A DNA stretch of 64,000 nucleotides. Origin: Candidatus Denitrolinea symbiosum (GTDB taxonomy: Bacteria; Chloroflexota; Anaerolineae; Anaerolineales; Villigracilaceae). The stretch is from the NCBI GenBank assembly GCA_017312345.1, contig BLAA01000001.1, positions 1,302,001 through 1,366,000 of the forward strand. The letters run 5' to 3'. Shown in pieces: positions 35,964 through 54,631 of this stretch. A program made the translations under genes and the position numbers. Numbering within the stretch: the stretch's first letter is position 1; every line of letters begins with the position of its first letter. The notes beneath the pieces are model-generated. The model was not told where the DNA came from, searched no databases, and was given only the letters and a program-made list of their open reading frames with translations.

Positions 35964-36877
35964 TGCTCAAACGAATTGCCAATACCGGAGTCAACCTTGT
36001 CGTGCTGGGCGTTTCGGTCGCCATCTTTCTGGTCGCTTTCTTTGCCTTGAGCGCCCTGGGCGCAGCCGGACGTCCGCCCACCATCGAAGTGTTATCTGCT
36101 ACGCGCGACCTGAACATCGGCGATGTCATCACCGCCAACGATCTGATCGTGAAGAAAGTCTTTCAGGATGACAACGCCGCCTTGTACATCCCCGGCGAGG
36201 AAGCCGCGGGAGTGGTGGGTGGGATCGTCGCCCAACCGATCTTCAGTGGCCAGCCGATTTTCCGCACGGCCATTATCGCCCAAGCCGCGGAAGGCACACG
36301 GCTTTCGGCTGTTCTCGCGAAATACCCTGGATACAGTTTGTTCCCGTTACCGCTGGATGCCATGAACCTGGTGGCTCCGGATGTGGAAGCCTTTCTGCCC
36401 GGCGACCTGGTGGGCGTCACGGTGGTGATTACCAGCCGGCCGCAACAGTTGACGACTCCGACTCCTATGCCGGAGTTGATCCTTCAGCCCGGATACAGCA
36501 CCGGACCCACCGCCACTCCCGAACCGGTGGAAGCCGCGCAGGCTGAGGCGATAAGTCGTGCATTACCTCCACTGGCAAAAGATTTATTCCCGATGGGTGT
36601 GCGCGTGATCGCCGTGCAGGGTCTGCCGCCTTCGACATCCGAAACTTCTGACTCGAGCGGCTCGACCTTTTCCACCACAACACAACCGCGCATGTTGATC
36701 CTCTTGATCCCCAACGCGGCGCGCGAAGTATTGTCTCTGGCCTTGCAGCAAGGAGACCGCCTGGTTGTTTCTCTCATGGCGCGCGGCGATGAGACTCCCA
36801 CGGCCGGCTTTACCTACTGGGACTTCGAAGATCTGTTCAAGCACGACCGCGAAGAAGTCCTGGGCGGAGGCCAGTAA
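35963..36877 (+). CDS. CpaB-like SAF-domain protein
   Basis: This 304-residue protein has an N-terminal membrane helix (LVVLGVSVAIFLVAFFAL) and then an SAF domain (VLSATRDLNIGDVITANDLI, FSGQPIFRTAII). CpaB/RcpC proteins assemble Tad pili at the envelope. The C-terminal half has a Thr/Pro-rich linker and a second beta domain. GGAG lies 6 nt before the ATG; both ends overlap neighbours by TAATG. Confidence 0.75.
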   Translation: MLKRIANTGVNLVVLGVSVAIFLVAFFALSALGAAGRPPTIEVLSATRDLNIGDVITANDLIVKKVFQDDNAALYIPGEEAAGVVGGIVAQPIFSGQPIFRTAIIAQAAEGTRLSAVLAKYPGYSLFPLPLDAMNLVAPDVEAFLPGDLVGVTVVITSRPQQLTTPTPMPELILQPGYSTGPTATPEPVEAAQAEAISRALPPLAKDLFPMGVRVIAVQGLPPSTSETSDSSGSTFSTTTQPRMLILLIPNAAREVLSLALQQGDRLVVSLMARGDETPTAGFTYWDFEDLFKHDREEVLGGGQ

Positions 36878-38235: not shown

Positions 38236-38238
38236 CCC

Positions 38239-39690
38239 ATGTTCGATATTACTGGCAAGACTCTGAAACCCGTAACCGAAGTGCGCAGTTCAGACGAAAT
38301 GGAACGCTGGTGGAATATCCTAGCTGAGGAAGGCCGCGCCCGCAAGGCGACCGAATCGCGCCAGCGCTCGCTGACCTCCACGGAGATCGAGGCCCTGGCG
38401 CGGCAGGCCTTCGAGGAGGTGAGTAGCAGAGCGGCCGAAGGTGCAGGGGTTGCCCTACCCAAGGAATTCATCCTGCGTTTGATCGGCGAGTTGTCCGGGA
38501 TGGGACCGTTACTGGAACTGATCGCCCGTTCGGATATCGAAGACATCGCCATCAACCTCGGGCATATCTATGTGTACACTACCAGCAATGGATGGAAATA
38601 TGCCGGCGCCGCTCCCGATGGCATCGGTGATGCCCTGCGCGTCATGATCGACCGCGCCGGCCAGCGCGCTCCCACACCGGATTATCCCGTCTCAGATGCA
38701 ATGTTGCAGGTGATGGTCCCGCTCGTGGATGGAACCGTGCGAAGAAAGGGTGTGCGTATCAATTATGTTATGCCGCCAGCTTCACCCTATGGCGACACGA
38801 TCACCTTGCGCGTCTCGAACTATCGCACCGCTTCCGACCTCACACAAGGTTCTTTATCTTTATTGTGCCAGACGCGCCTGCCGCCTGTCCCGCGCCCACG
38901 CTTCGATCCGAAGAACTTCCCGCGCGGCGAAGGCATTCTCACCCCCGAGGCCGCGAATTATTTATTGGGGGTGATGGTGCATGGTGGCACACTGGTGATT
39001 GCCGGGACAACCGGTTCGGGAAAAACATTTGTTGGCCAACGCATCCTCCAGGAAATGTTGGACTACTATCCACGCGGCGCCATCCGCTTGTTTATCGTGG
39101 AAGACTCGAACGAGATCATCCTGAACGGCTGGAATGGGGATGGTAAATCTGACACGGGTAACATCATCTACACCGTGACTCGTCCTGAAATTCGTGGCGG
39201 CCCGCCACCCGTGACGATGTATGACCTGATCCGTGCTGCCCTGCGTTCGCGTCCGCATGGCGTGGTGATCGGCGAGGCGCGCGGGGCCGAGGCCTGGGAG
39301 TTGATCCGCGCCGCAGCAACTGGACACGGGCACTCGGCCTTCACCATCCACGCCACCAGCGCCGAGCATGTCTGGCCGCGCTTCCTGCAGGTAGTGCAGT
39401 CCCATCCGGATGCAGCGCGCATGTCCGAGGTGCAGATCGCCCAATCCTTTGCGGAGGCCGTAACCGCCGCGGTCTACATCGAGCGCAACCCGCAACACGG
39501 GCAGATCGTGCGCGAGATCGTGGAGGTCTCACCCATCGTGGAACGCACTGCCGGGCGGCCTTCCTTTTCTCCGTTGTTTCGTTTTGAGTCTGGTAAAGGT
39601 TTGCTCCCAACAGGAAACCGCCCCATGCGTCCAAGCTTTCGTGCCTCCGAATTGAATTTACCCGAGTCCATGTTCAAGGGAATGCTGTAA
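38239..39690 (+). CDS. CpaF/TadA-like secretion ATPase
   Basis: This 483-residue protein has Walker A GTTGSGKTF near residue 255, an Asp box VEDSNEI, Walker B GVVIGEARG and a His-box-like HGHSAFTIHA. This is the GSPII/CpaF family that powers Tad pilus or type IV secretion assembly. It lies 3 nt after the TadZ-like gene and overlaps the next start. Confidence 0.85.
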   Translation: MFDITGKTLKPVTEVRSSDEMERWWNILAEEGRARKATESRQRSLTSTEIEALARQAFEEVSSRAAEGAGVALPKEFILRLIGELSGMGPLLELIARSDIEDIAINLGHIYVYTTSNGWKYAGAAPDGIGDALRVMIDRAGQRAPTPDYPVSDAMLQVMVPLVDGTVRRKGVRINYVMPPASPYGDTITLRVSNYRTASDLTQGSLSLLCQTRLPPVPRPRFDPKNFPRGEGILTPEAANYLLGVMVHGGTLVIAGTTGSGKTFVGQRILQEMLDYYPRGAIRLFIVEDSNEIILNGWNGDGKSDTGNIIYTVTRPEIRGGPPPVTMYDLIRAALRSRPHGVVIGEARGAEAWELIRAAATGHGHSAFTIHATSAEHVWPRFLQVVQSHPDAARMSEVQIAQSFAEAVTAAVYIERNPQHGQIVREIVEVSPIVERTAGRPSFSPLFRFESGKGLLPTGNRPMRPSFRASELNLPESMFKGML

Positions 39691-40217
39691 TGACCGAAGA
39701 GACCGTTGGTTCGACGCGCACGTTTGTTTTAGCGAAAGGCTTCACCCAAGCCGGCAATCACGCCGCGCTCATTGGCGATGATGATTCGAAACGATTATTC
39801 GCAGAGCTATTCGCTGATCCGGACCGACCCGAGGTGCGGCCCCAGGAAGCATATCAAGCCATGCTATCTTCCATTCAACCGGGCTGGACAATACGTTTGA
39901 TACAGGTGTTCTGGCCAGATCCCGAACCGCGCATTGCGTTTCAGCGACAGGTGCAGGAATGGAAGATACCTGAAATAGAAGGCTTGAACATTCTGCAACA
40001 AGGATTGGTTCTGGCGACGCAGGAATATCCATTGCCGTTTGTGCGCCGCACCATTCTGGAATTTGTTCAACCCGGTGATGAAGGGCTGGCGTGGTGGGAG
40101 GGTTTAACCGGCTTGTGCGCCGGCTTTGGAATACGTGTGAGCTATCTGGAACAGGCCGGGATCGAGGAACTGACCCGCTGGGTGCTCAATCCAAATCTGG
40201 AATATCAGCGCTCCTAG
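39690..40217 (+). CDS. Protein resembling the N-terminal domain of a VirB4-type ATPase
   Basis: This 175-residue protein contains GWTIRLIQVFWPDPEPRIAF, then RQVQEW. The stretch is reminiscent of the non-catalytic N-terminal domain of TraC/VirB4 ATPases. There is no P-loop. A P-loop VirB4-like gene lies 10 kb further on the same strand (50415), beyond a - strand block, so this may be a split partner. The family call is weak. Confidence 0.5.
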   Translation: MTEETVGSTRTFVLAKGFTQAGNHAALIGDDDSKRLFAELFADPDRPEVRPQEAYQAMLSSIQPGWTIRLIQVFWPDPEPRIAFQRQVQEWKIPEIEGLNILQQGLVLATQEYPLPFVRRTILEFVQPGDEGLAWWEGLTGLCAGFGIRVSYLEQAGIEELTRWVLNPNLEYQRS

Positions 40218-40228
40218 TGGGCGCTCTT

Positions 40229-43216
40229 TTATTTCACCGGCCCGATCTTCTCGACGCGCAGATAAGGTTCGCCGCGTTCCACATCCATCTCCATCACGCC
40301 GGTGATGAATAACGGTGCGCTGGAACTCACCAGGGATTTCGCGGCGCGATAGGCATCTGGAAAGAGGATCGTGTCCAATGTGCCGGTCAGGTCTTCGATG
40401 GTCAGGAACATCATCGGATCGCCTTTAGCCGTGCGGCTGCGATGAGAAGTTTGTCGCACGCCAGCCACGATGACCCGGCGCCCTACCAGTTGTGCCGCTT
40501 CGAGGATCGTGATGGCGCTTGCCGCGGTGATCTTCCCGGAAACCAATTCCAGTGGGTGAGCATCCAAACTTGCGCCCAGAATTTCCATCTGGGCATCTAC
40601 TTTCTGTTCCAAAGTCCATTCTTCTTCATCGGATGCTGTCCATCCGAACAGGCTCATTTGATTTTGCTGCCAGCCACCGCTTTGTAATCTGCGCAAGATG
40701 GATGGAATGGAATCCAATCCTTCCAGCGCTCCGACCTTGGCGAGGTTCTCCGCCTCTTGAACACGAGGGTCGACCCGCGCCAGGAAATCGTCCAGAGAAG
40801 AAAATGGCGCCAGGCGGAGGATGCGTTCAATTGTGTGATGCGTCAACTCCTTGACCTGTTCCAGGCCCATAAATAAAGTTCCATTGCGGACCCGGAAATT
40901 GGTTCCGGAATAATTCACATGCGGTGGACGGACGCGCAAACCCATGCGGCGTGCTTCGCTGAGATAGACGCGCTGGCTGTAGTATCCGCCCCAATTGGCC
41001 AGCACCGCCGCCATGAACTCGGCCGGAAAATGTTCCTTGCACCAGGCGGAGCGCCACCCTACTTTGGCATACGAGGCGGCATGCGCCTTGGGGAACCCGT
41101 ATCCCGCAAAAGCCGCCATCAGTTCCCAGACGCGTTCGCCGATCTCCAATGGGACACCGCTCTTCTCCTGGGCTTGCGAGACAAACTTGCGTTCCAACTC
41201 CTGCATCTTTTTGCCTGGATCGAAGTGGCTCATGGCGCGCCGCAGCAAATCCGCTTCGGCCAGGCTAAAGCCGGCCAGTTCGTGGGCGATGCGCAACACC
41301 TGTTCCTGGTACAGGATCACGCCGAAGGTCTCATCCAGCAATGGAGCCAGAGCAGGATGGAGATGTTGTACTTTCTCCTCGCCTTTGAAACGGCGTACAA
41401 AGGCATCCTTCAACCCGCCGCTCAAAGGACCGGGACGATACAAAGCCAGCGCGGCCATGATGTCATCTTCGTTTTTGGCATGGATCTCGCGCAGTGTCGC
41501 CCTCATCCCCGGACTTTCGATCTGAAAACAGCCAATGGTCTCTCCATGTTTGACACGCGCAGAGGTGGCGGGATCATCGGAGGGGGTGGAGTCCAAAACT
41601 GTCAAAGGGGTTGCGAAACGCTCCGGCTGGTTGTGCTGGATGAACTCAGACACATCGCCCAGGACCGTCAGGCCGCGAATGCCAAGCAAGTCGATCTTCA
41701 CAAGACCCAGCGCTTCCACTGCTTCCAGATCCAGTTGCGTAATGACCACCCCTTTTCCGCCCGAGCGCATCACGGGCACGAGATCGGTCAGGTTGCCCGG
41801 TGCGACGATCACGCCGCCAGGATGCATCGAGAGATGGCGCGGCAATTTCAGGATGGCTTCGGACTCATCGAAGATGATCTGAAAGGAAGGATACGCCGCG
41901 CGTAATTCCGCAAAGGGAGAGGGCGGTTCCTTACCTTCGCCATTTTCCTCGAAGCGTGCCCACCAGGAGTGCGGCAACTGGTTTGCCAGTTCACGTACTT
42001 TAGCCGGAGTAATTCCGTGCGCCTTGGCCACATCGCCCAGTGCGGAGCGCGGGCGGTAGCGGTTGATGGTGCCCACCATTGCGACTCGTTCGGCGCCATA
42101 GGTATCGAAGACATGCTGGATGACCGCATCTCTTCTACGCGAGCACAGGTCCGTGTCGATGTCGGGCGGGGTGGTGCGGGCCGGGTTGAGGAAGCGTTCG
42201 AAGTACAGGTTCAAACGCAGAGGATCCGGGCTCGTGATTCCCAAACAATGCGCCACTAGGGAGGAAGCCGCCGAGCCACGCGAGGAAAACGGTATGCTCC
42301 TTTCCCGGGCAAAGTCCAGGATTTCCTCCACAATCAGGAAGATCGGTTCGAAGCCCATGCGGGCGATCACATCCAGTTCATGGTTGAGACGCGCTTGGAT
42401 GTCCGGTGTGATCTCGCCATACAGTTTCTGCGCGCCGGCAAAGGCTTTCTTCCGCAGGTGCTCCGCGGCGGTGACACCGGGAGGCAAAGCAACGGTGGGC
42501 ATTTGGGATTCACCCAAGGGCAGGTCGAAGCGGCAACGCTCAGCGATCTCCTGAGTGGTAGCCAAAGCCTCGGGAAAATCCTGGAAGCGTCGTTCCATTT
42601 CCTGGGATGAATGGAAATAGGAATCGGCCGAAGCCAAAGCAGATTGAGGCAGCGAGTCCATGGGTTGGTTCAGGCGGATGGCTGTGAGGGTACGTTGCAA
42701 CCTGGCTTGGTCTGGCGACAGGAAATAAATTGGGTGGGCTGCAACCGTGGGCAGATTGAGTTTGCGTGCTCGGTTTGTGAGTTCGTGTGCCTGGTCGGGG
42801 GTTCGCAAAGCCACATATAGATAACCAGGAAAGATATCCACAAGCGGTTCAGGGGCGTTGCTCAACGCAATCAGCCCATTCGCGTGATGGGAAAGCAACT
42901 CAAGCGAACAAGATTTCTCCGGATCCTCCTGCAACGCCAGCGTACTGCTCAAGCGGCACAGGTTGGACCAGCCGGTCATGTTTGTTGCCAGTAATTGAAG
43001 CGGGCCGGAGTCTAGATCGATCTCCAATCCGATGATTGGTTGAATACCCTCTTGCTTGCAGGCCGAGATGAACTCAATCATACCGGTGAGCAGGCGATGA
43101 TCGGTGAGGCCGAGGGCGGTCATGCCGGCTTCACGCGCGGCATGTGCTAATTCGGCGGGTGTTGCCAAGCCTTCCTGCAGAGAGTAGGCGGAGTGGGCAG
43201 TGAGATGCACGTGCAT
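40229..43216 (-). CDS. DnaE-type DNA polymerase III alpha subunit (short form)
   Basis: This 995-residue protein has an N-terminal PHP domain (HLTAHSAYSLQEGLATPAEL, LGLTDH), a polymerase core with catalytic PDIDTD near residue 350 and KIDLLGIRGL, and a C-terminal OB fold (RRVIVAGVRQTSHRSRTAKG). At about 1,000 residues it is shorter than typical DnaE1 and closer to DnaE2/ImuC error-prone forms. It could be an element-borne or mutagenic polymerase. No ImuA/ImuB partner is visible. Its start codon lies about 8 nt after a -10-like TACAAT. Confidence 0.85.
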   Translation of the reverse strand: MHVHLTAHSAYSLQEGLATPAELAHAAREAGMTALGLTDHRLLTGMIEFISACKQEGIQPIIGLEIDLDSGPLQLLATNMTGWSNLCRLSSTLALQEDPEKSCSLELLSHHANGLIALSNAPEPLVDIFPGYLYVALRTPDQAHELTNRARKLNLPTVAAHPIYFLSPDQARLQRTLTAIRLNQPMDSLPQSALASADSYFHSSQEMERRFQDFPEALATTQEIAERCRFDLPLGESQMPTVALPPGVTAAEHLRKKAFAGAQKLYGEITPDIQARLNHELDVIARMGFEPIFLIVEEILDFARERSIPFSSRGSAASSLVAHCLGITSPDPLRLNLYFERFLNPARTTPPDIDTDLCSRRRDAVIQHVFDTYGAERVAMVGTINRYRPRSALGDVAKAHGITPAKVRELANQLPHSWWARFEENGEGKEPPSPFAELRAAYPSFQIIFDESEAILKLPRHLSMHPGGVIVAPGNLTDLVPVMRSGGKGVVITQLDLEAVEALGLVKIDLLGIRGLTVLGDVSEFIQHNQPERFATPLTVLDSTPSDDPATSARVKHGETIGCFQIESPGMRATLREIHAKNEDDIMAALALYRPGPLSGGLKDAFVRRFKGEEKVQHLHPALAPLLDETFGVILYQEQVLRIAHELAGFSLAEADLLRRAMSHFDPGKKMQELERKFVSQAQEKSGVPLEIGERVWELMAAFAGYGFPKAHAASYAKVGWRSAWCKEHFPAEFMAAVLANWGGYYSQRVYLSEARRMGLRVRPPHVNYSGTNFRVRNGTLFMGLEQVKELTHHTIERILRLAPFSSLDDFLARVDPRVQEAENLAKVGALEGLDSIPSILRRLQSGGWQQNQMSLFGWTASDEEEWTLEQKVDAQMEILGASLDAHPLELVSGKITAASAITILEAAQLVGRRVIVAGVRQTSHRSRTAKGDPMMFLTIEDLTGTLDTILFPDAYRAAKSLVSSSAPLFITGVMEMDVERGEPYLRVEKIGPVK

Positions 43217-43356: not shown

Positions 43357-43932
43357 CTACATAAGCCCCCGAATTATCTGCTTGGCCTTTGATGATTTTT
43401 CCTCCCACGTTACGCCAATATTATCCATCCGATAATATCGCGGGTGACCCTGCCAGACCTGACCCAGGAGCCGATCCAGCCGAATGGACTCTTCCACCGT
43501 TTCGGGGCGATGGGCTTCGGGATAGCGTTTGTAGGCGTGCGCCGCGCCATCCGCGGCAGTGACCAGATGAATTACGACAGCATAACGCTGATAATGTTCC
43601 TCGCGGTGCGTGCGGGTGAAGGAGAAGAACTCCTCTTCCTCCCATCCGCGAGTCAGCCAATACGCCAGCGGGTCAAGACTGCCACGATTACACAAAACCA
43701 GCCCGTCATCATCGAGTTGAAGAGTTTGAGTCAGGGCGTCTTCCAAACCCCATTGGGCGCGCACCATCAACCGCTGGAATTGTTTTTGAGAGGGAGGAAT
43801 ACCCACGCCCCCAACGGCAAAGATGGCTTCGGGTAGAAAGAGAAAACTCCCTTCGTGACGCAGTTCCTCCATCAAAGTGGACTTGCCGCCGCAGGGTCCG
43901 CCAGTGAGGACGATGAAGGGGCGGGGAGTCAT
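43357..43932 (-). CDS. P-loop ATPase/kinase (AAA_28-like)
   Basis: This 191-residue protein has Walker A TGGPCGGKSTL at residues 10-20 and the AAA_28/NadR-kinase-like layout, with CNRGSLDPLAYW in the middle and a C-terminal WEEKSSKAKQIIRGL. ATG 43932 overlaps the stop of the upstream HEAT gene (ATGA). A fragment of a second copy sits at 45584-45664 after the other HEAT gene, so HEAT plus kinase form a duplicated pair. Its substrate is unknown; phosphorylation of the HEAT protein or a small molecule is possible. Confidence 0.75.
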   Translation of the reverse strand: MTPRPFIVLTGGPCGGKSTLMEELRHEGSFLFLPEAIFAVGGVGIPPSQKQFQRLMVRAQWGLEDALTQTLQLDDDGLVLCNRGSLDPLAYWLTRGWEEEEFFSFTRTHREEHYQRYAVVIHLVTAADGAAHAYKRYPEAHRPETVEESIRLDRLLGQVWQGHPRYYRMDNIGVTWEEKSSKAKQIIRGLM

Positions 43933-45566
43933 AGGGGAAAATCTACACCAATACCCATATCAGTATGGTCATCAGTGTGGGGATCAACGAAACCGAGTCC
44001 ATCACAAGTTTCATCGGTATGGGAATCACAGTGTTTCGCGGTTATTGCTTCCCGCTGTAACAAAATGTCCGCTTTAGTTTGCTCATCCAAACCCTGCTGA
44101 TGGTAGATTTCCACCAGCGCATTGGCGACCATCTGACGCGTCCGAGAGCGGTACAATTTTTCAGTGTAAAGCTCAATAATGAGCGGCTTGACGGAAGGTG
44201 AGCCGATTTTAGCCAAGGATTTAAGAGCAACATCTCTAAAATCATCTTTTTTGAATTTCTCCATAAGCGGCTCAACTGCCCGAGAATCGCCGATTTCGCC
44301 AAGTGTGTTGATAGCCCACAACTTCACATCGTTATCCGAATCCTTTAGTGCATTAACAAGCCGCTCAATAACAAGTGGATCGCCGATTTTTATCAAAGCT
44401 CTTAGAGCTGCCAGACGAACAGGACTATTGAAACTTAACTTTAAGTTACCCGTAACATGCTTGGACTCGGCCGCAAGCGCTTCGACAGCAGAAATCTCAC
44501 CAATTTCAGCGAGCGCATTAATGACCGAAATTCTCACGTTAGGGTCACCATCCTCAAGCGCAAAAATGAGTGGCTTTACAGCACGAGCGTCGCCAATCCT
44601 ACCAAGCACCTGGGCAGCAACCGCGCGCACACGGTTGAATTCACTGTGGAGAGCAGCAAGAAGTGCCTCAAGCGCAGGCGCACCGATATTAACAAGCGCA
44701 TCAGCAGCATCAGACTCATGAAACCGAAGTTCTCGAATCAGCGGCTCTACAGCACGGGTATCGCCAATCTTCCCCAACGCCTCAATAGTTGCGATGCCTA
44801 CTTCCATATCCTTAAGCATAGAGATGAGCGCATCCAAGGCGCGAGGATCGCCGATTTTGCCAAGCGCGTTAATGGCATCCAATCTGACACTAATATCCTC
44901 ATCACGGAGAGATTCGATTAGCAACTCAACAGAACGAGAATCTGCAATTTCAGAAAGAACTTTAATAACAGACAACTTCACATTGCGGCGCCCGTTTTTT
45001 AGTGCCGCTCCAAGCGGTTTTACAGCTGGTATGCCTATTTTAGCCAGCACATCAACCACCCCCTCACGGACCAACCCGTCTTGCAATTCAGCGATGAGTG
45101 GTTCTATGGCAGGATTCCCAATTTTACTCAAGGCTTCCGCCACTCCATCGCGGTCCCCAATTTCATACTTCAAGGCGGTTATGAGTGGTTCTATAGCAGG
45201 CGAACCAATTTCAATACATTCATTCCATTCTCGTTTGGCAATCCAATAAATGGCACTGCTTTCATCTTTACTAGGTTGCCAGCCAGTCTTTTCCAGCACA
45301 GATATTGCCGCGTTGCGTACATTTACATTGCCGTCCTGGAGCGCAGTGACGAGCGGCTCTGTAGCAGGCGCGCCAATTTTGACCAACGCGTTTGCCACCT
45401 CTTCACGAATATCATCATACCCGAGTATGGCAACAAGTGCCTCGATGGCATCCTCGCGTATGCTGGCGTCCTTTTTATAATCCAATGCCTTGATTAAGCC
45501 TTTTACATCATGCGTGGCTTTCAGTTTTTCAACATTGGGTTTAAACAAATCTTGTAAAAATGACAT
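43929..45566 (-). CDS. HEAT-repeat protein with His-X-Asp tail (HEAT-A)
   Basis: This 545-residue protein starts MSFLQDLFKPNVEKLKATHD. HEAT/PBS-lyase-type repeats (ALxKIGxPAxEPLIxAL) fill residues 25-500. The last 34 residues form a different, low-complexity tail with four His-X-Asp motifs (His512, 516, 530, 534) and the ending DDHTDMGIGVDFPL. The tail, not the repeats, is what it shares with HEAT-B besides the N-terminus. It is coupled to the kinase downstream. The adjacent radical SAM maturase suggests the tail is modified. AAAGGAG lies 6 nt before the ATG. Confidence 0.8.
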   Translation of the reverse strand: MSFLQDLFKPNVEKLKATHDVKGLIKALDYKKDASIREDAIEALVAILGYDDIREEVANALVKIGAPATEPLVTALQDGNVNVRNAAISVLEKTGWQPSKDESSAIYWIAKREWNECIEIGSPAIEPLITALKYEIGDRDGVAEALSKIGNPAIEPLIAELQDGLVREGVVDVLAKIGIPAVKPLGAALKNGRRNVKLSVIKVLSEIADSRSVELLIESLRDEDISVRLDAINALGKIGDPRALDALISMLKDMEVGIATIEALGKIGDTRAVEPLIRELRFHESDAADALVNIGAPALEALLAALHSEFNRVRAVAAQVLGRIGDARAVKPLIFALEDGDPNVRISVINALAEIGEISAVEALAAESKHVTGNLKLSFNSPVRLAALRALIKIGDPLVIERLVNALKDSDNDVKLWAINTLGEIGDSRAVEPLMEKFKKDDFRDVALKSLAKIGSPSVKPLIIELYTEKLYRSRTRQMVANALVEIYHQQGLDEQTKADILLQREAITAKHCDSHTDETCDGLGFVDPHTDDHTDMGIGVDFPL

Positions 45567-45583
45567 CGTAAACTCCTTTCATG

Positions 45584-45664
45584 TTCGTGCGACAATTTTC
45601 CAATGAGCGTGGATTTGCCGCCGCCGGGTCCGCCGGTTAGGACGATTAACAGGCAGGAGTTCAT
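45584..45664 (-). pseudogene. Truncated kinase remnant (P-loop end only)
   Basis: ATG 45664 overlaps the stop of HEAT-B exactly as the intact kinase overlaps HEAT-A. About 27 codons follow: VLTGGPGGGKSTLIGKLSHE is recognisably the first strand and P-loop of the kinase at 43932. The rest is missing; the sequence then runs into the ribosome site of HEAT-A. It is a relic of a duplicated HEAT-kinase pair. Confidence 0.75.
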
Positions 45665-47772
45665 AGCGGAAAATCAAGGCCAATGCCTATGTCCGTGTGT
45701 CCGCCGCTTTGGTCATTATGGCTCCCGCCACCGGTATCCAAATGATCTTGTGCGCCGGTAAAACATATTTTTATTCTGTCGGTATGCCAAGAGGGGTATT
45801 TCTTGGAATCTGTATGATGACTGTAGTCCCTGTGAGCCTCCATAATTATCTGCCGGTATTCTAGGATATCGCTCTTTTGCAGTTCGTTTAGCTTTCCAGA
45901 CTTGTACAAAGCCAATAACCGAGTAGCAGAAAATCTGCGAACATTGAGATCGAAATGATGGAGTGTTTCAACCAAAGGCTTAAAAGCAGGTGCGCCAATA
46001 GCATCAAGTTCCTGTGCGGCGATTTCCCGCTCTTTGCTATCCAGGCTCTTTGTAATCCAATAACGCGCTCCGTATTCATCCATGCCTGGCTTCCAACCTA
46101 ATTTTGCCAATGTTTTTATTACCTGTTTTTTCTGAGCGTGATTATTTTTCAGCGCAAGCTTTAGCGGCTCGATGGCAAGCACGCCTATCTCCACACAGCG
46201 ATCGAAATCGTTCTTCAGGATCCAATACTGTGCTCCATACTCATCGTTTTCAGGCAACCATCCGAGTTTAGCCAAGGCATCTACCGCCCCTTTTTGCATT
46301 TCCTGCCATGGACGACTCTTTACAGCGGTCACAAACGGTTCAACTACCTGTGGACCAATCCTGCCCAACTCTTCATACCCGCCACTTTGCATCCAGAAAA
46401 TTACGAGTGCCTCTGCAGCGCGCTTATCAGCTATTTTCCCAAGCGCCTTAGCAGCTGATCTTCTCAAGTTGTAGTCTTCATTGCTAAGCGCGTAAATCAA
46501 AGCGTCTATCACTTTAGCAGGTTCAATCTTAATTAGCGCCTTTGTAATTTTGCTTTGCCTTTCTTTATCCATTTTTTTAAGCGCGGCAATCAGTATGTCA
46601 ATGGAAGGTATGCCGATTTGGGCACAGGCTTCCCAGTTCTGTTTGGCAGCCCAATAAGCTGCGCCGAGATGATCTCCCCCAGGTTGCCAATGAAGCTTGT
46701 CCAATGATTCGGCCGCCGCCTTACAAACCGCATCATCTTCATCCTTGAGCGTTTCAACAAGCGGGTCGATTGCGCAGGCATCCTCAATCTTCCCCAAAAC
46801 TTCAGCGGCATTCATGCGAACGTAGGGGGTTTTATCCTTGAGGGCAACCACCAAGTGTTCAACCGCGCTGACATCGCGGATCTCTCCCAGCACTTCAGTC
46901 GCAATCTGGCGTATATCTTTGTTGCCGTCTTTAAGTGCGGCAATAAGCTGTGAGACGGCGTGAGCGCCTCCGATCATTTTTAGCGCATCGACAACAACTC
47001 TGCGCAACTCCTTGTTTTTCGCCGCAGGAAGGAGTATTTCAACTGCGCTGGTGTCACCAATCTTCCCTAGAGACTTGGCAATGACCTGACGAAATTGGGC
47101 ATTTTGAATCTTGAATTTGGCAATAAGCGGCTTAACCGCGCGGGGATCCCTGATATTCCCTAGCGCTTCGATTGCCTCTAATTGCACTCGATTACTTCGA
47201 TCCGTAAGCGCGGCGATGAGCGGTTCAACAGCGCGAGCATCTCCAAGTTTTCCCAGCGCCTCGGCGGCAGCCTCACGAACATCATCCTGGCTATCCTGTA
47301 GCACAACAAGGAGCGGTTCAACAGCTTTTGTCCTGTCCATGCTACCTAACGATATAGCTGCAGACTTGCGTACGGTTTTATTTTCATCTTTGAGTGTGGC
47401 AATCAGTGGCTCAGTAAAACACCTATTTGCAGAATTTCCCACCGTCAAGGCAACCACCTCTCGCACTTGGTCATTACCATCCAAGAGTGCTGTAATTAGC
47501 GCTTCTACAGTGAATCCGCTGGTTCTTACTCCGTTGATTTTTACAAGGGCTATGGCTGCATTAAGTCGCACGCCGAAGTGGTCATCCTTGAGAGCATCGA
47601 TAAGCGGTTTGACGGCGCCATCATCCCCAATAATCCCCAGAGCGTTTGCCGCCTCCAAACGGACTCTCGATTCTTTCTGATAACCCAATGCCTTATATAA
47701 ACCTTTGACATCACGCGCAGATTTCAACTTTTCCACGTTAGGTGGACCAAACAAGCCTTGTAAGAATGACAT
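45661..47772 (-). CDS. HEAT-repeat protein with His-X-Asp tail (HEAT-B)
   Basis: This 703-residue protein starts MSFLQGLFGPPNVEKLKSAR. About 600 residues of HEAT repeats follow, with interspersed Trp-containing variants (LDKLHWQPGGDHLGAAYW). The tail, residues 647-703, has six His-X-Asp motifs (His647, 653, 663, 677, 685, 692) and ends GGHTDIGIGLDFPL, matching HEAT-A. ATG 47772 is preferred by comparison with HEAT-A and by GGAG 6 nt upstream; ATG 47775 is adjacent. It overlaps the radical SAM stop, so synthesis is coupled to the putative modifying enzyme. Confidence 0.8.
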   Translation of the reverse strand: MSFLQGLFGPPNVEKLKSARDVKGLYKALGYQKESRVRLEAANALGIIGDDGAVKPLIDALKDDHFGVRLNAAIALVKINGVRTSGFTVEALITALLDGNDQVREVVALTVGNSANRCFTEPLIATLKDENKTVRKSAAISLGSMDRTKAVEPLLVVLQDSQDDVREAAAEALGKLGDARAVEPLIAALTDRSNRVQLEAIEALGNIRDPRAVKPLIAKFKIQNAQFRQVIAKSLGKIGDTSAVEILLPAAKNKELRRVVVDALKMIGGAHAVSQLIAALKDGNKDIRQIATEVLGEIRDVSAVEHLVVALKDKTPYVRMNAAEVLGKIEDACAIDPLVETLKDEDDAVCKAAAESLDKLHWQPGGDHLGAAYWAAKQNWEACAQIGIPSIDILIAALKKMDKERQSKITKALIKIEPAKVIDALIYALSNEDYNLRRSAAKALGKIADKRAAEALVIFWMQSGGYEELGRIGPQVVEPFVTAVKSRPWQEMQKGAVDALAKLGWLPENDEYGAQYWILKNDFDRCVEIGVLAIEPLKLALKNNHAQKKQVIKTLAKLGWKPGMDEYGARYWITKSLDSKEREIAAQELDAIGAPAFKPLVETLHHFDLNVRRFSATRLLALYKSGKLNELQKSDILEYRQIIMEAHRDYSHHTDSKKYPSWHTDRIKICFTGAQDHLDTGGGSHNDQSGGHTDIGIGLDFPL

Positions 47773-50171
47773 CATAAACTCCTTTCAACTTCGAGCGGAA
47801 AATCAGAAATGAGCAAAGGCAATTTGGCTATCTGCCATTGCTCGACACTCACATCCAACACATCCAACGCGCTCAACAACAATCCGTTTGCCCGCTGGTA
47901 CAAGGCGGAGCAGTCACGCGGCGGGGCGTTGGGGTCTTCGGCGGAACTTCCCCAGGCGCGGCAAAAGCCTCCGCAGAGGTAGCGCAGGTCGCAGGCGCGG
48001 CACTGCGCATTGCTGTCCACGGTGGCAAGGCGGTAGGCATCGTTGCGCTTAATCACGGTGGGCAGTCCTTCATGCAGGGCGTTTCCCAAATGGCTGCGCG
48101 CGCCCATCAGCGCATGGCAGGGATAGCAATTCCCATCGGGCGCAATATACAGGTTCATGCCCAGTCCACAGGTGGAGGCGGGGTCGGCGGCGCGCGCCAG
48201 TTTTTCTTCGTCGTCATCCAGCGATGAGGAAAAGTCATGCGACAGGATCAATCCTGCGGCGCGTCCGATGGGCAGGGTCATTTTGATGCGCGATTCGATT
48301 CCGAGTTCCTCCGCCAGCGCGCGCACAGCATCGTCCGCCGCGCCCTCCGCTTCGGCGGCGGTCAACGTGGCGGCGATCGAAATTCCCAGACCTGACAGGC
48401 TTTGGAACCCTGTCAGGTCTTTTAGATTAGAGACCGTTCGCTGATATGTCCCCCTCCCGCGCCGCGCGTTGTGGGTCGCTTCATCGCCGTCCACGCTCAC
48501 CACCACGAGATCGAAAGCGCGCGCGATTCTTTCCAGCAGGGCTTCGTCCAGCGGCAGGGCAAGGTTGGTGCGCAAGACGAACTTCATCGGTTTCAATTGC
48601 GGGCGCAGTTCGGCAAGCGTGTCCAGCAGGAAGTCGCGCTGCGGGTGTGCCAGCGGTTCGCCGCCTGTGATGACCAGTTTGGCGAAGCCCGCCTGCGCAG
48701 CTTCCTCCGCCATGCGTTTTACGGATGGGACATCCAGCGCGAGTTTGTTCTCCTCGCCCGCGCGGGCATAACAATGGTCACAGCGCAGGTTGCAGGCGTA
48801 GGTCACGTGCAGGTAGGCGTTGAGCAGGCGACCCTGCGGCTGTTCATCCAACCTGCGGCGCAGGGCGCGCAGACTGCCGAGCGCGGTTTCGCGGCGCGTC
48901 ACCAAGCCGGCCGCGTCCAGTTTTTCGATGGCCTCTTCGACGCTGGAACTGCAGCCCAACGCTGCGGCGGCGACGATCTGCCGCGCCTGTTTCGCCGTTT
49001 GGGAGGGGTGTGTCTCGCCGCGCATGATTTGCAGGAGATTCCCGCGCCGCAACAATCCGCCGCCTCTGCTCGAAATCACCGCTTGCATGTTTTCATCCGA
49101 AAAGACCTGCGCCAGCGCCTGATCCGAGATATGATCGAACAGCCGTTTATAGGCGGGACAGCGCGGGTCGCGCCCGTTCTCCCCGACGGAGATGGCGTTA
49201 TAGGGACAACCCCCGCGGCAGACATTCCACCACGCGCAGTCGCCGCATTCCACTTTTGCCTGTGCGTCGCGCGCTTCCAATCGCTTCCACGCGGCGGATT
49301 CTTTCAAGTCCGCCATCGTGGGCGAATCCTGTACCCAACCCAAGCGCCATTCAGGCTGGGTGACAAAACGGTTGCACGAGAAAATCCCGCCGTCGGGCGT
49401 GACGGTCAGGTAATCGCCAAGACAATCGGAGAAGGTACACAGCCCGCCCACCCCCGCCGAGATACTGCGGGCAATCTGGTCAAAGGTGGAGACGCGGATA
49501 CGGGAGATGTTTTCAAGGTAATGATCAAAGAGGCGCACCAAGAGGTTGCCAGATTCGTCGGGAGTCAAGACTTCCGAAGTCTCCGAGACTTCGGAAGTCT
49601 GTAGTTTTCCCACCACCTCATGCACACTGAACGACAATCCTTTTTGCGCGAAGAAATCGAAGATGGCTTCCGCGCGCGGCGCGGATTGGCGCGTGAAAGT
49701 GGCGATGACGCCCGCGGAAATTCCATGCCCCTGTGCGCGTTCGATTCCCGCCATCGTCCGCGCGAAATAGCCCTTGCCCCTCTGCGCGTCGTTCACTTCT
49801 TCGAAACCGTCGAGACTCGTCCCAATCGAAACGTCATACTCGCGGAATAACTCGCACAGTTCGTCGGTCAACAGCCACAGGTTGCTTTGAATCGAAAACT
49901 TGACCTTACGCGGAGCGAGTCCCTGCCGCAGGATGGGCAGCGCCAGCCGATAAAAATCAGCGCCCGGCACAAGGGGTTCGCCGCCGTGGAATGTGAGTTC
50001 CAGTGGCTCCCTGTTACCGAGCGCAGTCTGCCAGCATATGATGGATTCAACCATCTCCTGCTTCATGGTTGCTCCGCCTGTGTGCGGTCCGAAACAATAT
50101 GAACACTTCGCAGGACACGCCAGCGAAGGGATAAGTATCAAATGGGTTGACATTAGCGTCGCTTCAAGCAA
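47772..50171 (-). CDS. Maturase with two radical SAM/SPASM domains
   Basis: This 799-residue protein has two complete radical SAM sites: Cys19-Cys23-Cys26 (CPAKCSYC) and Cys460-Cys464-Cys467 (CNLRCDHC), each with a GGEP motif. Each is followed by a SPASM-like Cys cluster (CGDCAWWNVCRGGC near 309-322; CRACDLRYLCGGFC near the C-terminus). A helical, winged-helix-like linker (about 395-445) joins the halves. Such enzymes install cross-links in peptides. The start may be TTG 50171 (GAGGG 7 nt upstream) or ATG 50153. Its C-terminal ISDFPLEVERSL echoes the DFPL end of the HEAT proteins. Two in-frame palindromes interrupt it. Confidence 0.8.
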   Translation of the reverse strand: MLEATLMSTHLILIPSLACPAKCSYCFGPHTGGATMKQEMVESIICWQTALGNREPLELTFHGGEPLVPGADFYRLALPILRQGLAPRKVKFSIQSNLWLLTDELCELFREYDVSIGTSLDGFEEVNDAQRGKGYFARTMAGIERAQGHGISAGVIATFTRQSAPRAEAIFDFFAQKGLSFSVHEVVGKLQTSEVSETSEVLTPDESGNLLVRLFDHYLENISRIRVSTFDQIARSISAGVGGLCTFSDCLGDYLTVTPDGGIFSCNRFVTQPEWRLGWVQDSPTMADLKESAAWKRLEARDAQAKVECGDCAWWNVCRGGCPYNAISVGENGRDPRCPAYKRLFDHISDQALAQVFSDENMQAVISSRGGGLLRRGNLLQIMRGETHPSQTAKQARQIVAAAALGCSSSVEEAIEKLDAAGLVTRRETALGSLRALRRRLDEQPQGRLLNAYLHVTYACNLRCDHCYARAGEENKLALDVPSVKRMAEEAAQAGFAKLVITGGEPLAHPQRDFLLDTLAELRPQLKPMKFVLRTNLALPLDEALLERIARAFDLVVVSVDGDEATHNARRGRGTYQRTVSNLKDLTGFQSLSGLGISIAATLTAAEAEGAADDAVRALAEELGIESRIKMTLPIGRAAGLILSHDFSSSLDDDEEKLARAADPASTCGLGMNLYIAPDGNCYPCHALMGARSHLGNALHEGLPTVIKRNDAYRLATVDSNAQCRACDLRYLCGGFCRAWGSSAEDPNAPPRDCSALYQRANGLLLSALDVLDVSVEQWQIAKLPLLISDFPLEVERSL
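48388..48420. repeat. Palindromic element inside the maturase gene (first)
   Basis: Perfect 12-bp arms AGACCTGACAGG (48388-48399) and CCTGTCAGGTCT (48409-48420) with a 9-nt loop. It is translated in frame as KDLTGFQSLSG (about residues 584-595). The palindrome looks like the dispersed repeats of many Chloroflexota genomes. Confidence 0.75.
49568..49600. repeat. Palindromic element inside the maturase gene (second)
   Basis: Perfect 15-bp arms AGACTTCCGAAGTCT (49568-49582) and AGACTTCGGAAGTCT (49586-49600) with loop CCG. It is translated in frame as the repeated peptide TSEVSETSEV (residues 191-201). Unrelated in sequence to the other palindrome. Confidence 0.8.
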
Positions 50172-50414: not shown

Positions 50415-52160
50415 ATGTCTCAACCCCAAGACCAATTCGCTGCCAGCCTCGCCTCCGAAGCCGTGGAGATTCAGGAAGATCATCTGCTCTTTCCGGGCGG
50501 ATACCTGCTGCCTCTCTCGGCGCGCGGCAGCGGCGTGCCCGGTCAGACAGACCGGCCTTGGTCGCGCCTCACGGCAGAGGTTTTCTATCCCAACCTGCCA
50601 GTGATTTACTCATTATCGTTGCGCCGCGAACCACCGGATGTATTGCGCGGCTCCTTGCGCGCGAGGCGTACGCTCTTCGAAGGCTTCATGATGGCGCTGG
50701 CTGAGAAGACCGGCCGCCGTCCCTCGATGGCCGAGCGCGCCTCCGACTCGGCGATGGACGCGGCCGAGTCTGAACTCACCTTCGGGAAACCGGCATTTCG
50801 TATCGCACTTCTCGCGGGACTGTTCGTGGAACGAGATCGCTTCAATGAAGCCGAAGCCGCGCGGCGCGTGATCGAATCGCAGCTACGCGCGCGCGGCCTG
50901 ACGGCCCAGCGCCTGTTCTACATCGCGGAGCGCGCCCTGCACCATTTTCAACCGGGAGGAAAACTCTTTCCGGGATTGGATGAACCAACCCTTTTTCTCG
51001 AAGAAACCCTTCCACTTCTACCCGCGCCTTCGCGCCAGGTATTGCCTGCCGAAGACTCGGTCTGGATCGGAACACATGCGCGGGATGGCCGGGATGTGCA
51101 TTTTTCCTTCACCAGGGGACTCGATCCGAATGTCCCGCCGCCTCCACATGCCACCACTTTGATTCTGGGCGAACCCGGTTCCGGCAAGACCACGCTCCTG
51201 CGCTGGATCATGCTGCAACGACTTCTGCAAGGCCGTACTGTGATCTCCATCGACCCGGAGGGCGAGAATAACCGCTTGTGTGAGGCCGTGGGAGGGAGAG
51301 TCATACCCGCTGGCATTCCCGAAGATAAAGACACCTGCCTGATCCAACCCCTGCAGGGCGAGAACCCGGCTGAAATGTTATTGGCTGCGCGCTTCCTCAT
51401 CGCCGCGCTTGCAGGCGAATCAGTTCTTTCTCCCGGTGTGCAGGCCGCATTACACGAAGCGGTGAAACGTAGGTGGGAGCGGCGGCCCGGTCCCTGTTCC
51501 ATCGCCGAACTGGTGGAGACGCTTGGCACGCTCAATGTTCCAGAGGCTGCCATGCCTCTGGCGCTCCTGCGTCCATTCATGCGCGGCGGTTTGTTTGAGG
51601 GCTTCTTCGATCGTCCCAAGGCATTGCTCTCGCCGCATTTCCCTGCCGGCCAGTGGTGGAACTTCGATCTGTCCTCGTTACGTGAAGAGAACCGCGCCAT
51701 CGTGCATGCCGTACTGGCGTGGTTCCTGTATCACGCCGTGACGATTGGCAGACAACCGATGGACATCTTCATCGATGAAGGCTGGCGTCTCTTACGCAGC
51801 GGTCCGTTCACCGATCTGCTGGACGAACTCGGACGGCGGGCGCGCAAGCGCGGCGTGGGCGTGACCTTGATCACCCACCTGCCGGCCGACCTATTGAAGA
51901 ATCCCACCTCCTTGAGTCTGGCCTCCACCGCCTTCATCGGCCGGCTCGGACCGGACGAAGCCTTTGCCTTTTATCGTTCACTGGGCGTCCCCGAAAGCGA
52001 AGCGCGCAAGAACGCCGAGATGACCTCGCGTCTACCGCCGCGGGTCTTCCTGGCCGCGCCTTCGGGCGGACGCGGCGCGCTCTTTCCTGTTCTCGTTTCC
52101 ATTCCACCCGCCTGGCTGCAATTCTTGAAACAACTCGGCGCCACGGGGATCCTGCGATGA
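50415..52160 (+). CDS. VirB4/TraC-like conjugation ATPase
   Basis: This 581-residue protein has Walker A GEPGSGKTT near residue 252 and Walker B DIFIDEGWRLL near 450, followed by a VTLITHLPADLL sensor. It belongs to the VirB4/TraG P-loop group that energises type IV secretion. The non-catalytic N-terminal domain is short, consistent with the separate small protein at 39690. It is overlapped by the next gene (ATGATG). Confidence 0.75.
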   Translation: MSQPQDQFAASLASEAVEIQEDHLLFPGGYLLPLSARGSGVPGQTDRPWSRLTAEVFYPNLPVIYSLSLRREPPDVLRGSLRARRTLFEGFMMALAEKTGRRPSMAERASDSAMDAAESELTFGKPAFRIALLAGLFVERDRFNEAEAARRVIESQLRARGLTAQRLFYIAERALHHFQPGGKLFPGLDEPTLFLEETLPLLPAPSRQVLPAEDSVWIGTHARDGRDVHFSFTRGLDPNVPPPPHATTLILGEPGSGKTTLLRWIMLQRLLQGRTVISIDPEGENNRLCEAVGGRVIPAGIPEDKDTCLIQPLQGENPAEMLLAARFLIAALAGESVLSPGVQAALHEAVKRRWERRPGPCSIAELVETLGTLNVPEAAMPLALLRPFMRGGLFEGFFDRPKALLSPHFPAGQWWNFDLSSLREENRAIVHAVLAWFLYHAVTIGRQPMDIFIDEGWRLLRSGPFTDLLDELGRRARKRGVGVTLITHLPADLLKNPTSLSLASTAFIGRLGPDEAFAFYRSLGVPESEARKNAEMTSRLPPRVFLAAPSGGRGALFPVLVSIPPAWLQFLKQLGATGILR

Positions 52161-54631
52161 TGCATCCCAAAAACAAATACATGTGCTTGACCTGTGGCTA
52201 TGAGTTCGCTTCCACTCCCAATGATTGCCCACTGTGCAATGGCAAGTGGCAGGGTTGGGAACTGCTCTTCGCACCCTTGAAACTTGATGACCTGCGCGCC
52301 CAGGTGATGGGCTGGCTGGGACAACTTCCCAGTCCAGCGGTCATTGAGTGGATTGCCTCGCCGATGGGACTGCGCGTGCGGCTTTATCTTCCACCGCACG
52401 TTGCCGAAGGAGTGGTGAAGGCCTGGGCCGCCATGACCGGCCAACACAGCCGCTGGCGTGCGATCGAAGAAGTGGATGTGCGCGCTTCCGGTTTCTCCGT
52501 GTTTTCCTCCAATCGCCTGCCTTCGGTACTTGCTTCCGCCAAAGACAGCGATCCGTTGCTTGCCATCGCCAGCAAGTTGATCAGCGCGGCGCGCCATGGA
52601 AAAGAAACCAGTCTGAAATTATGGGTCTTGGGACGCGAGGAGCGCTTGCAGGAACGCCTGCGCAAGTTATCGGCCTATGCCTATGGCACCGAAGGCGGGG
52701 TGGAAAACGAAACGCCCAATCCGTGGGGTAGGGAACTCGTTTTCCTGCGTGCGTTGCTATTCATCAGCCTGCTGGTGGCTGGAGTGAGCGGCGGTTTGTG
52801 GAGCGCGGGTTGGTTGGCGCCGCTCTTTGGTGTGATTGGCCTGATTGCCGGAGGTGTACTTTTTGTTACATCTGCCTTTGGTTTGCGCGACTGGCTGGAC
52901 TGGCGCTCGATCCCGAAAGAGATTCTGGAAAGGAGGATTCAAGAGCCGCTTTTCCGCGTAGCGTTGAGTCTGTCTTCGCCCATTGACCTGCCCTTGTTGG
53001 ATGGACGGCAATATCAGTTTGAACTTCCGAGCCTCTGGCCGGAGATCCGCGAATATGGTTTCCCGCTGCCTGTCGGGGAACTGGCCGGCCTGATCGCCCC
53101 GCTCCAATTGGGCGAGGGATCTGGATTGTTGGACCGAGCCGTTTGGCAGGATGTGCCCGCGCCCCCGCCCTCCCAACCATTGCTCGAAGCAGGCTTCAAG
53201 ATCGGGAAGAGCGTTGCTACTGGCGAAATGATCGGTGTTGATCCGGATGGACATGGAATGGCAACGGGCGGCAGTCGCTCGGGTAAATCCTCCTTTGTCT
53301 TCGCCATGCTCCAGCAACTGCTGGCGCGCGGCGAAAACGCCCCCGGCATTTTCCTGGTTGATCCGCATGTCTCGTTGGCAGACGCCTTCCTGGACGCGGT
53401 TGCTCAGTTGCCGGATGAACAACGTCAGATCGCCATCAAGAGACTCCGTATCGTCACCCCCGATCAACCGCAGGTCATCCCACTCAACCTGCTGGCCGTC
53501 CCGGACTTCACTTGGGCTGGCAACGCCATCGTCCAGATCGGGCGGCGTATCTGGGATGACTACTGGGGGCCGCGCATGCAGGCTGCTTTGCTCGGTCTCT
53601 TCCGCCTGGCGCACGTTTGGAACCAACATCATCCCAAGGATGGATTGGGACTCCTGCACGTGGTCTTCATGGCCTTTAACAAGGAATGGCGGCACAAGGC
53701 AATGGCCCTGCTCCCGCCCGGAGACCGCATGGGCGCGCTGGCGTTGGATGCCCTGCTCGGCCAGACCGGCGAGGATGAACGCAAGAATCAAAGCTGGATC
53801 ACCGAAGTGATCAGCCCGGTGCTCTCGAAGGTGATGGCGCTGGAACTTTCCCCCTGGTTGTTCTCCGCCATGCACCAGGACCGCTTCGTGGATATGACGA
53901 AGTGGGTGGATGAACGCGCCTGGATCTTCCTGCGCCTGCCTTCCGGCGAGATGGGGCGCGAGGGTGCGCGCCTCACCGCCTCAGTCTTGTACAACGTCTT
54001 CGATGCCGCCTATCGCAAGGCTACATTGGATTCGCCCGTTCCCTTCTATTTCATTGTGGATGAAGCCCAGGAGATTGGCTCGGGCATGCGGCTGGAAGCG
54101 ATGTTGTCCGAGGGCGCCAAGTTCGGGGCGCGCATGTTCGTGCTGGCGCAGTCTTTGTCTCTGATGCGCAAGGTGGAAGGCATGGAGCCGGTGGTGCAGG
54201 CTCTGCTCGCCAACACTTCCACCCAGATGTTCTTCTCCCCGGACCCGGAAGACGCCGATCTGATCCGCGCCGCCTTGAACTCCAGCCTGCGCTACGGGAA
54301 CATGACCCTCGACCTGCCCTCCCTGCAGTGCTGGCTGCGTGCGCGTTTGCATGGGCAGTGGCAACCGCCGACCTTGGCGCAGATCCAACCGTTGCCGCGC
54401 GCCGATTCTGGCAGAGTAAACGCACTCATGCAGGAAGTCTTTGCCGCCCATGCGGATGAGTATCTTCCGTTGGATGGCTGGCAGGAACGTGCAGCGCATT
54501 CGTTGAGGGGTATGTTGCCTCCTTCCGTGGCGAACCTCCTCGATGAACTCCTGGCGGCGCGCATCGCGCGTAAGGAGGTAGGCGTGACCCAGCCTGCTCC
54601 GGCAGAGGATCCCCTCAAATTAGGATTTTGA
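52157..54631 (+). CDS. VirD4/HerA-like coupling ATPase with zinc ribbon
   Basis: This 824-residue protein has an N-terminal zinc ribbon (CLTCGYEF ... CPLCNGK), two transmembrane segments near 195-240, Walker A GGSRSGKSS near 370 and Walker B YFIVDEAQE near 630. The membrane anchor plus TraG-like motor matches a coupling protein that brings DNA to the secretion channel. A relaxase was not found in the window. Confidence 0.75.
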   Translation: MMHPKNKYMCLTCGYEFASTPNDCPLCNGKWQGWELLFAPLKLDDLRAQVMGWLGQLPSPAVIEWIASPMGLRVRLYLPPHVAEGVVKAWAAMTGQHSRWRAIEEVDVRASGFSVFSSNRLPSVLASAKDSDPLLAIASKLISAARHGKETSLKLWVLGREERLQERLRKLSAYAYGTEGGVENETPNPWGRELVFLRALLFISLLVAGVSGGLWSAGWLAPLFGVIGLIAGGVLFVTSAFGLRDWLDWRSIPKEILERRIQEPLFRVALSLSSPIDLPLLDGRQYQFELPSLWPEIREYGFPLPVGELAGLIAPLQLGEGSGLLDRAVWQDVPAPPPSQPLLEAGFKIGKSVATGEMIGVDPDGHGMATGGSRSGKSSFVFAMLQQLLARGENAPGIFLVDPHVSLADAFLDAVAQLPDEQRQIAIKRLRIVTPDQPQVIPLNLLAVPDFTWAGNAIVQIGRRIWDDYWGPRMQAALLGLFRLAHVWNQHHPKDGLGLLHVVFMAFNKEWRHKAMALLPPGDRMGALALDALLGQTGEDERKNQSWITEVISPVLSKVMALELSPWLFSAMHQDRFVDMTKWVDERAWIFLRLPSGEMGREGARLTASVLYNVFDAAYRKATLDSPVPFYFIVDEAQEIGSGMRLEAMLSEGAKFGARMFVLAQSLSLMRKVEGMEPVVQALLANTSTQMFFSPDPEDADLIRAALNSSLRYGNMTLDLPSLQCWLRARLHGQWQPPTLAQIQPLPRADSGRVNALMQEVFAAHADEYLPLDGWQERAAHSLRGMLPPSVANLLDELLAARIARKEVGVTQPAPAEDPLKLGF

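Follow-up and report, generated by a model that had tools for sequence, protein, structure and literature searches.

The window analyzed here is a stretch of 64,000 nucleotides from Candidatus Denitrolinea symbiosum (Chloroflexota; contig BLAA01000001.1, positions 1,302,001 to 1,366,000), and our subject is a cassette on its minus strand that encodes, in this order, a two-half radical S-adenosylmethionine (SAM)/SPASM maturase, two HEAT-repeat proteins (HEAT1 and HEAT2), and an AAA_28 P-loop protein. Both HEAT proteins end in a tail of repeated His-X-Asp (HxD) motifs. We think it likely that this is a protein-borne cassette resembling those for ribosomally synthesized and post-translationally modified peptides (RiPPs), in which the N-terminal half of the maturase (N-half) would link His to Asp (i,i+2), the C-terminal half (C-half) would act on Cys, and the tail would be retained. 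A wider proposition seems to us evenly balanced, namely that there is a cross-phylum class of never-cleaved HEAT tails carrying strings of His-X-Asp cyclophanes made by enzymes of the family TIGR04083, often with a Cys cross-link from the fused half, so as to form a rigid functional end.

The proposed substrates, HEAT1 (703-704 amino acids; 45661..47775) and HEAT2 (545 amino acids; 43929..45566), are both recognized by the Pfam models HEAT_2 and HEAT_PBS. The tail of HEAT1 (45664..45834) holds one Cys and the motifs HRD, HTD, HTD, HLD, HND, and HTD and ends in GIGLDFPL (terminus HTDIGIGLDFPL); that of HEAT2 (43932..44033) holds two Cys and the motifs HCD, HTD, HTD, and HTD and ends in GIGVDFPL (terminus HTDMGIGVDFPL). 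The six and four motifs counted in these stretches by a first-pass annotation of the window are thus borne out by the sequence. Aligned with the tails of relatives (alignment A2), they follow the consensus AAxALVxIYRSGxL...IL..R..I...HxD......C...HxDxGIGVDFPL, for which NCBIfam holds no model. AlphaFold predicts HEAT2 as a confident solenoid whose last helix ends at residue 512, which is the first HxD His by alignment numbering, and gives residues 513-545 a predicted local distance difference test score (pLDDT) below 50. In the model, the tail is therefore an exposed, flexible appendage that an enzyme could reach. A Foldseek search with the HEAT model returned generic HEAT and alphaRep proteins only.

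The enrichment of HxD is real, highly significant, and beyond chance. In a first set of 28 HEAT open reading frames from relatives, Asp stands at position +2 of 69% of the His residues in the tail (the last 75 residues) versus 7% in the HEAT bodies, with no other offset conspicuous; the 70 HxD motifs compare with a mean of 10.1 and a maximum of 23 in 2000 shuffles. Among 44 curated tails, 123 of the 154 His belong to an HxD motif (shuffled mean 21.9, maximum 37; 5000 shuffles), and tails outside the profile give 54 of 67. HxE occurs twice in the curated set, D-x-H 16 times, and H-x-S eight times, and the middle residue of HxD can be any of 19 amino acids but is never Pro. A repeated aromatic-X-X motif with its partner at +2, as in triceptide substrates, is thus present in the HxD tails. 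Judged by sequence, a strict Asp, a free middle residue, and a fixed spacing are features that an i,i+2 cross-link motif should have and a generic metal-binding tail should not.

It is quite improbable, in our estimate, that the HxD tail is an unmodified metal-binding or docking tail and that the genes are partners in some other way, the HEAT protein serving, say, as the enzyme's chaperone or adaptor. His and Asp are indeed metal ligands, a scaffold role is common among HEAT proteins, and the co-occurrence described below is equally strong for functional partners as for an enzyme and its substrate. A metal tail, however, would allow Glu and other spacings, which does not fit 2 HxE versus 123 HxD. 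Moreover, several HEAT paralogs with varied bodies and the same kind of tail accompany a single maturase (three in loci L039 and L049, five in L031), which is typical of substrates, and TIGR04083 is named as peptide-modifying, while the fold relatives of the maturase bind peptides.

The second line of evidence is distribution. A single-sequence scan of genome contigs found no relative, whereas a profile scan of GTDB genomes with alignment A1 gave 34 loci with relatives of the N-half. Six-frame analysis places a tail-bearing HEAT gene beside the maturase in Chloroflexota (Anaerolineales, Limnocylindria, and others), Peptococcaceae, Acidobacteria, Marinifilum (Bacteroidota), Armatimonadota, and Coatesbacteria, so that the combination is scattered over at least six bacterial phyla; the first-pass annotation had proposed looking for such tails beside radical SAM genes in other genomes, and they are there. 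The tail profile A2, (HxD)n-GIGVDFPL, and TIGR04083 were then searched separately in the same four genome samples. Both were found in 5 of 400 Chloroflexota genomes (the identical five, from four families), in 8 of 177 genomes of the class Limnocylindria (the identical eight), in 1 of 199 Acidobacteriota (the same genome), and in 2 of 151 Armatimonadota (the same two). Across these roughly 900 genomes neither was found alone. The distinct positive genomes number 14, as G307 equals G823 and G314 equals G817 (identical contig coordinates in the Limnocylindria and Chloroflexota samples). Assuming independence, the five-genome Chloroflexota match would arise by chance once in C(400,5), or about 1e-11, a figure that relatedness raises. 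Most positives had supplied tails to A2 (those of G267 and G718 were left out of its training), and three of the samples were centered on genomes chosen for having the system.

Linkage alone does not account for this agreement: in three Anaerolinea genomes and in G447, the maturase has no HEAT neighbor and the tail-HEAT gene lies elsewhere in the genome. Both genes occur in cultured Anaerolinea thermolimosa (IMO-1). Tail-bearing genomes lacking the maturase, which had been named at the outset as speaking against the idea, did not turn up in the four samples. The independent co-occurrence, unlinked genes included, thus supports modification on a scaffold, as well as the earlier suggestion that a large HEAT protein takes the place of a small precursor as substrate. 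Together with the motif statistics, it also contradicts the view, which we find barely credible, that a sulfatase-type or other housekeeping radical SAM enzyme merely sits near HEAT genes while HxD is low-complexity drift. HEAT genes are common and the maturase has the fold of the anaerobic sulfatase-maturating enzyme (anSME), yet the co-occurrence is exact, the sulfatase maturase model stays far under its cut-off (179.8 of 349 bits), and HxD is kept across phyla.

The maturase itself (793 amino acids; 47772..50153) contains two complete radical SAM plus SPASM units, as first read from the window and now supported by Pfam (Radical_SAM and SPASM) and TIGR04083. Its start is better placed at the ATG at 50153 than at the TTG at 50171, according to an alignment of homologs. 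The N-half (48954..50153) carries the cluster motif CPAKCSYC (50094-50117) and the C-half (47772..48953) the motif CNLRCDHC (48771-48794), so that CxxxCxxC is kept in both, together with the SPASM cysteines (the full set in the N-half). Against TIGR04083, an NCBIfam family of "peptide-modifying" radical SAM proteins with a cut-off of 300 bits, the whole protein scores 427.2 and the N-half alone 383.9 bits. Next best for the N-half are the anaerobic sulfatase maturase model TIGR03942 (179.8 bits, cut-off 349.45, hence no member of that family) and DynA (169.7 bits), followed far under their cut-offs by the cyclophane models AmcB (109.2/425), GrrM/OscB (107.5/310), YhhB (102.5/445), and FxsB (63.9/370). 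The nearest curated models of the C-half also stay under cut-off: StsB (94.9/625), PapB (85.9/340), SCIFF (69.2/425), and MftC. The AlphaFold model of the maturase (pLDDT 84) finds its best Foldseek matches in anSMEcpe, ChlB bound to ChlA, and CteB, and the N-half is near ChlB in both sequence and fold; ChlB is called a multiple cyclophane synthase in a reference title that PMC12636437 quotes. By these comparisons, the N-half resembles sulfatase maturases and cyclophane synthases, and the C-half resembles thioether maturases. A PADLOC match of the C-half to viperin was set aside as a cross-match, since this half contains a SPASM domain and scores best in NCBIfam with models of peptide maturases; the PADLOC label HEAT-ARM_XIII for the HEAT proteins was judged likewise.

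The same comparisons bear on a rather unlikely alternative, in which the maturase modifies the tail otherwise: by a C-N bond between the imidazole N and the Asp C-beta, by oxidation of Asp or His, by epimerization, or at Cys only, with HxD as a recognition element. In its favor, the dynobactin maturase model is among those closest to the N-half, dynobactin carries an i,i+2 Tyr/His C-N bond (PMC11002830), and the closest solved fold, anSME, is an oxidizing enzyme. A recognition element, however, would explain the strict Asp at +2 and the unconstrained middle residue less well than a His/Asp bond does, and Cys as the core reaction is excluded by one-half maturases that pair with tails wholly without Cys.

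These one-half maturases form a natural experiment on the division of labor. Wherever a locus has an HxD tail and its maturase gene is intact, the N-half is there; the C-half is missing in 10 genomes with tails, whose one-half maturases go with HxD tails of the same kind. The twin radical SAM architecture stressed by the first-pass annotation is therefore present in the window without being essential, and we dropped the second half as a requirement. What the optional C-half tracks is the tail Cys: at least one Cys-bearing tail occurs in 17 of 17 two-half genomes with a readable tail versus 1 of 10 one-half genomes (Fisher p = 2e-6; before L098, L044, and L049 were included, 14/15 versus 1/10, p = 4.6e-5). 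An apparent exception, L027 (two halves beside a tail without Cys), fell away because the same genome has a second tail protein, L098, with SSSSDCSHRD. We regard the association as only moderately independent. In L034, a one-half maturase is accompanied by the Cys-free tail HADEFPYGSHEDSGIGVDFPL. Because HxD tails without Cys go with one-half enzymes, the simplest assignment would make HxD the substrate of the N-half and Cys that of the C-half. In one locus, L041, the one-half maturase ends in ...NPVGKCQVHTDEGIGVEFPT; here (L041:9300-9425) the inter-domain linker is joined to GKCQVHTDEGIGVEFPT, an apparent deletion that fuses the enzyme to a HEAT tail. This terminus looks like a deletion scar linking the linker to a Cys-bearing tail, and the product could be either an enzyme that modifies itself or a dead remnant. 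The scar suggests that the one-half forms in Limnocylindria may have arisen by loss.

Taken together, these data lead us to infer a mechanism that has the tail as its substrate. The role of leader or scaffold would fall to the HEAT solenoid, whose last helix is conserved, in place of a leader peptide, and the disordered C-terminal tail would be the core. The N-half would dock the tail, probably by recognizing either the last HEAT helix or the conserved GIG(V/L)(D/E)F end, and its 5'-deoxyadenosyl radical would take a beta-hydrogen from Asp, whose beta-carbon would then be bonded to the imidazole ring of the His at position -2. One His-X-Asp macrocycle (-2 Da) per motif would be made, iteratively. 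Where there is a C-half, it would add a further modification involving the Cys conserved in the tail; a thioether seems most likely. As neither a peptidase nor an exporter was recognized in the cassette, the tail, once modified, is probably retained in the cell as part of the HEAT protein.

Each of these proposed bonds has precedents. C2(His)-Cbeta bonds are known to Ala (HaaB) and Arg (YhhB), i,i+2, and a C3(Tyr)-Cbeta(Asp) i,i+2 bond is known from YxdB (PMC11002830). A His-X-Asp cyclophane would, by analogy, combine two known half-reactions; it is absent from the characterized list in PMC11002830. PapB forms Cys-Asp thioethers with 0-6 residues between the partners (PMC9413430), so that the C-half could plausibly form a Cys-Asp bond. 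The cyclophane-type modification proposed in the first-pass annotation is accordingly strengthened by co-occurrence, by the directional, Asp-specific motif, and by the fold relative ChlB, while the cross-link itself would still be a prediction.

Several observations weigh against this prediction. Outside its own family, the N-half matches an anaerobic sulfatase maturase best (in the PDB, too), an enzyme that oxidizes Cys or Ser and forms no cross-link, and every cyclophane-family model remains far from reached. One tail of the closest relative (HEAT1 of L025) has degenerate motifs. A one-half maturase coexists with a tail Cys in L040, and the Cys and C-half labels change 3-6 times on the tree, so that their association is not independent of phylogeny. 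Finally, no tail match was obtained in G826/L035, where the maturase lies on a short contig, and the fragmentary or divergent G453, G454, and G463 gave no match to the tail profile; in G453 (locus L048), a short HSD-Cys tail can nonetheless be seen by eye.

How does the cassette relate to known systems? With the triceptide enzymes (XncB, OscB/GrrM, MscB, YxdB, HaaB, and YhhB) and with ChlB, its fold neighbor, it shares a SPASM radical SAM enzyme and a repeated motif of the aromatic-X-Asp/Asn/Ala/Arg type, and both His and Asp are known as triceptide cross-link partners (PMC11002830). Unlike in triceptides, the motif is His-X-Asp, the substrate a HEAT protein of 211-1039 residues, and a second radical SAM half is often present; none of the curated models for three-residue cyclophane-forming enzymes (AmcB, GrrM/OscB, YhhB, and FxsB) is reached. 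The His-Xaa-Ser system (HxsA, HxsB, and HxsC) likewise combines two radical SAM maturases with His-X-(small/acidic) repeats in tandem (PMC9062424), but here HxD prevails over HxS (123 versus 8), and the N-half scores only 80.2 of 370 bits with the HxsB model, which places it outside that system. The ranthipeptide and sactipeptide maturases (PapB, StsB, SkfB, and CteB) provide the curated models and PDB chains to which the C-half is closest, and the joining of Cys to Asp by PapB parallels the tail Cys that tracks this half; the cut-offs are not reached, however, and the tails usually have one Cys and no C-X3-D array. Nor is there the short RiPP precursor with a leader and a cleaved core.

Membership of TIGR04083 is clear, as the N-half exceeds the cut-off in every sample where it is present. 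The model is single-domain (376 positions) and names no substrate, whereas the members described here are bacterial, are paired with HEAT-HxD proteins, and frequently carry a second radical SAM domain as a fusion, as in the 793-residue protein of the window; single-half relatives exist as well. As a family control, TIGR04083 also matched in the archaeon Methanosarcina acetivorans. A likely substrate is thereby supplied for an orphan peptide-modifying family. Radical SAM cross-linking of peptides is a known kind of chemistry, but the predicted His-X-Asp bond is not among the characterized triceptides listed in PMC11002830. If it is formed, it would add a new type of cyclophane, His-X-Asp, and a carrier of a new kind, the folded repeat protein, which suggests that RiPP-type cross-linking also takes place on large folded proteins, with repeat-protein scaffolds replacing leader peptides; a tail that is both cross-linked and retained would come near to categorical novelty. 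Our literature search found no description of the HEAT-HxD system and no mention of TIGR04083.

The cassette genes are compactly arranged. Overlaps of stop and start codons join all of them except at the HEAT1/HEAT2 junction. The TGA of the maturase overlaps the first ATG of HEAT1 (TTTATGATG), as had been noticed from the window, and the stop of HEAT2 is overlapped by the AAA_28 gene (43357..43932), which encodes a P-loop ATPase/kinase-like protein of 191 amino acids (Pfam AAA_28, 4e-18). This gene was absent from the first-pass annotation, and so was its remnant copy between the HEAT genes (45566..45664, minus strand; MNSCLLIVLTGGPGGGKSTLIGKLSHEHE...), which translates as MNSCLLIVLTGGPGGGKSTLIGKLSHEHERSLR, a shortened ATPase N-terminus comprising about the first 28 residues with the Walker A motif. 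In a related locus (G217/L021), the order is maturase, HEAT, ATPase, HEAT, and a second, frame-disrupted ATPase. Given the remnant and this order, the most fitting interpretation of the layout in the window is a HEAT-ATPase unit that was duplicated in tandem and then decayed. The AAA_28 gene adjoins tail-HEAT genes in L025, L021, L026, L036, and L065 (in the latter, from a Gemmatimonadota genome, the two overlap on another contig) and is also present in L031, which makes it a frequent but not obligatory third component. A search of solved structures gave no useful relative; our guess is that it may work together with the HEAT protein as a P-loop phosphotransferase.

Among the relatives, the tails vary mostly at their ends. 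In locus L031 (482-7959), a tandem series of five HEAT-like proteins lies upstream of a single maturase. Each carries an HxD tail, and four of these tails have a Cys before the last HxD and end in YFKL or NFKL. Together with the three of L049, these divergent tails end in NFKL/YFKL or in unrelated residues and lack GIGVDF, but HxD is kept. In the Bacteroidales locus L048, the maturase follows a HEAT protein whose short tail reads HSD...C. Clustering of the flanking open reading frames gave, among the entries listed, mainly antisense shadows and local synteny, with no further shared component and no recurrent peptidase or exporter among the neighbors.

Some of the loci bear traces of recent change. 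The maturase gene of the closest relative is split into two overlapping frames (L015:9378-11755; a frameshift or an assembly error), with the HEAT2 tail and the ATPase intact. A HEAT body in L021 (6969-8669) contains long, near-identical internal repeats (DHLGWKPAQDESAGWYWMAK...) from a recent internal duplication, while its tail is single. In Armatimonadota, genome G718 carries a further maturase gene with a frameshifted N-half right after a tail-HEAT gene (L087:1-3177), its other copy lying on L044. As to the surroundings of the cassette in the window, a mobile-element reading found no support, as searches of viral contigs and plasmids returned no relative. Downstream of the ATPase gene lies a PHP-domain protein of the DNA polymerase III alpha type (995 amino acids; 40229-43216), DnaE2-like by eye. 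Genes for CpaE-like, CpaF/VirB11-like, VirB4-like, and TraD/VirD4-like ATPases flank the cassette (36877-40217 and 50415-54631), and the VirB4-like neighbor is kept beside it in G019/L015.

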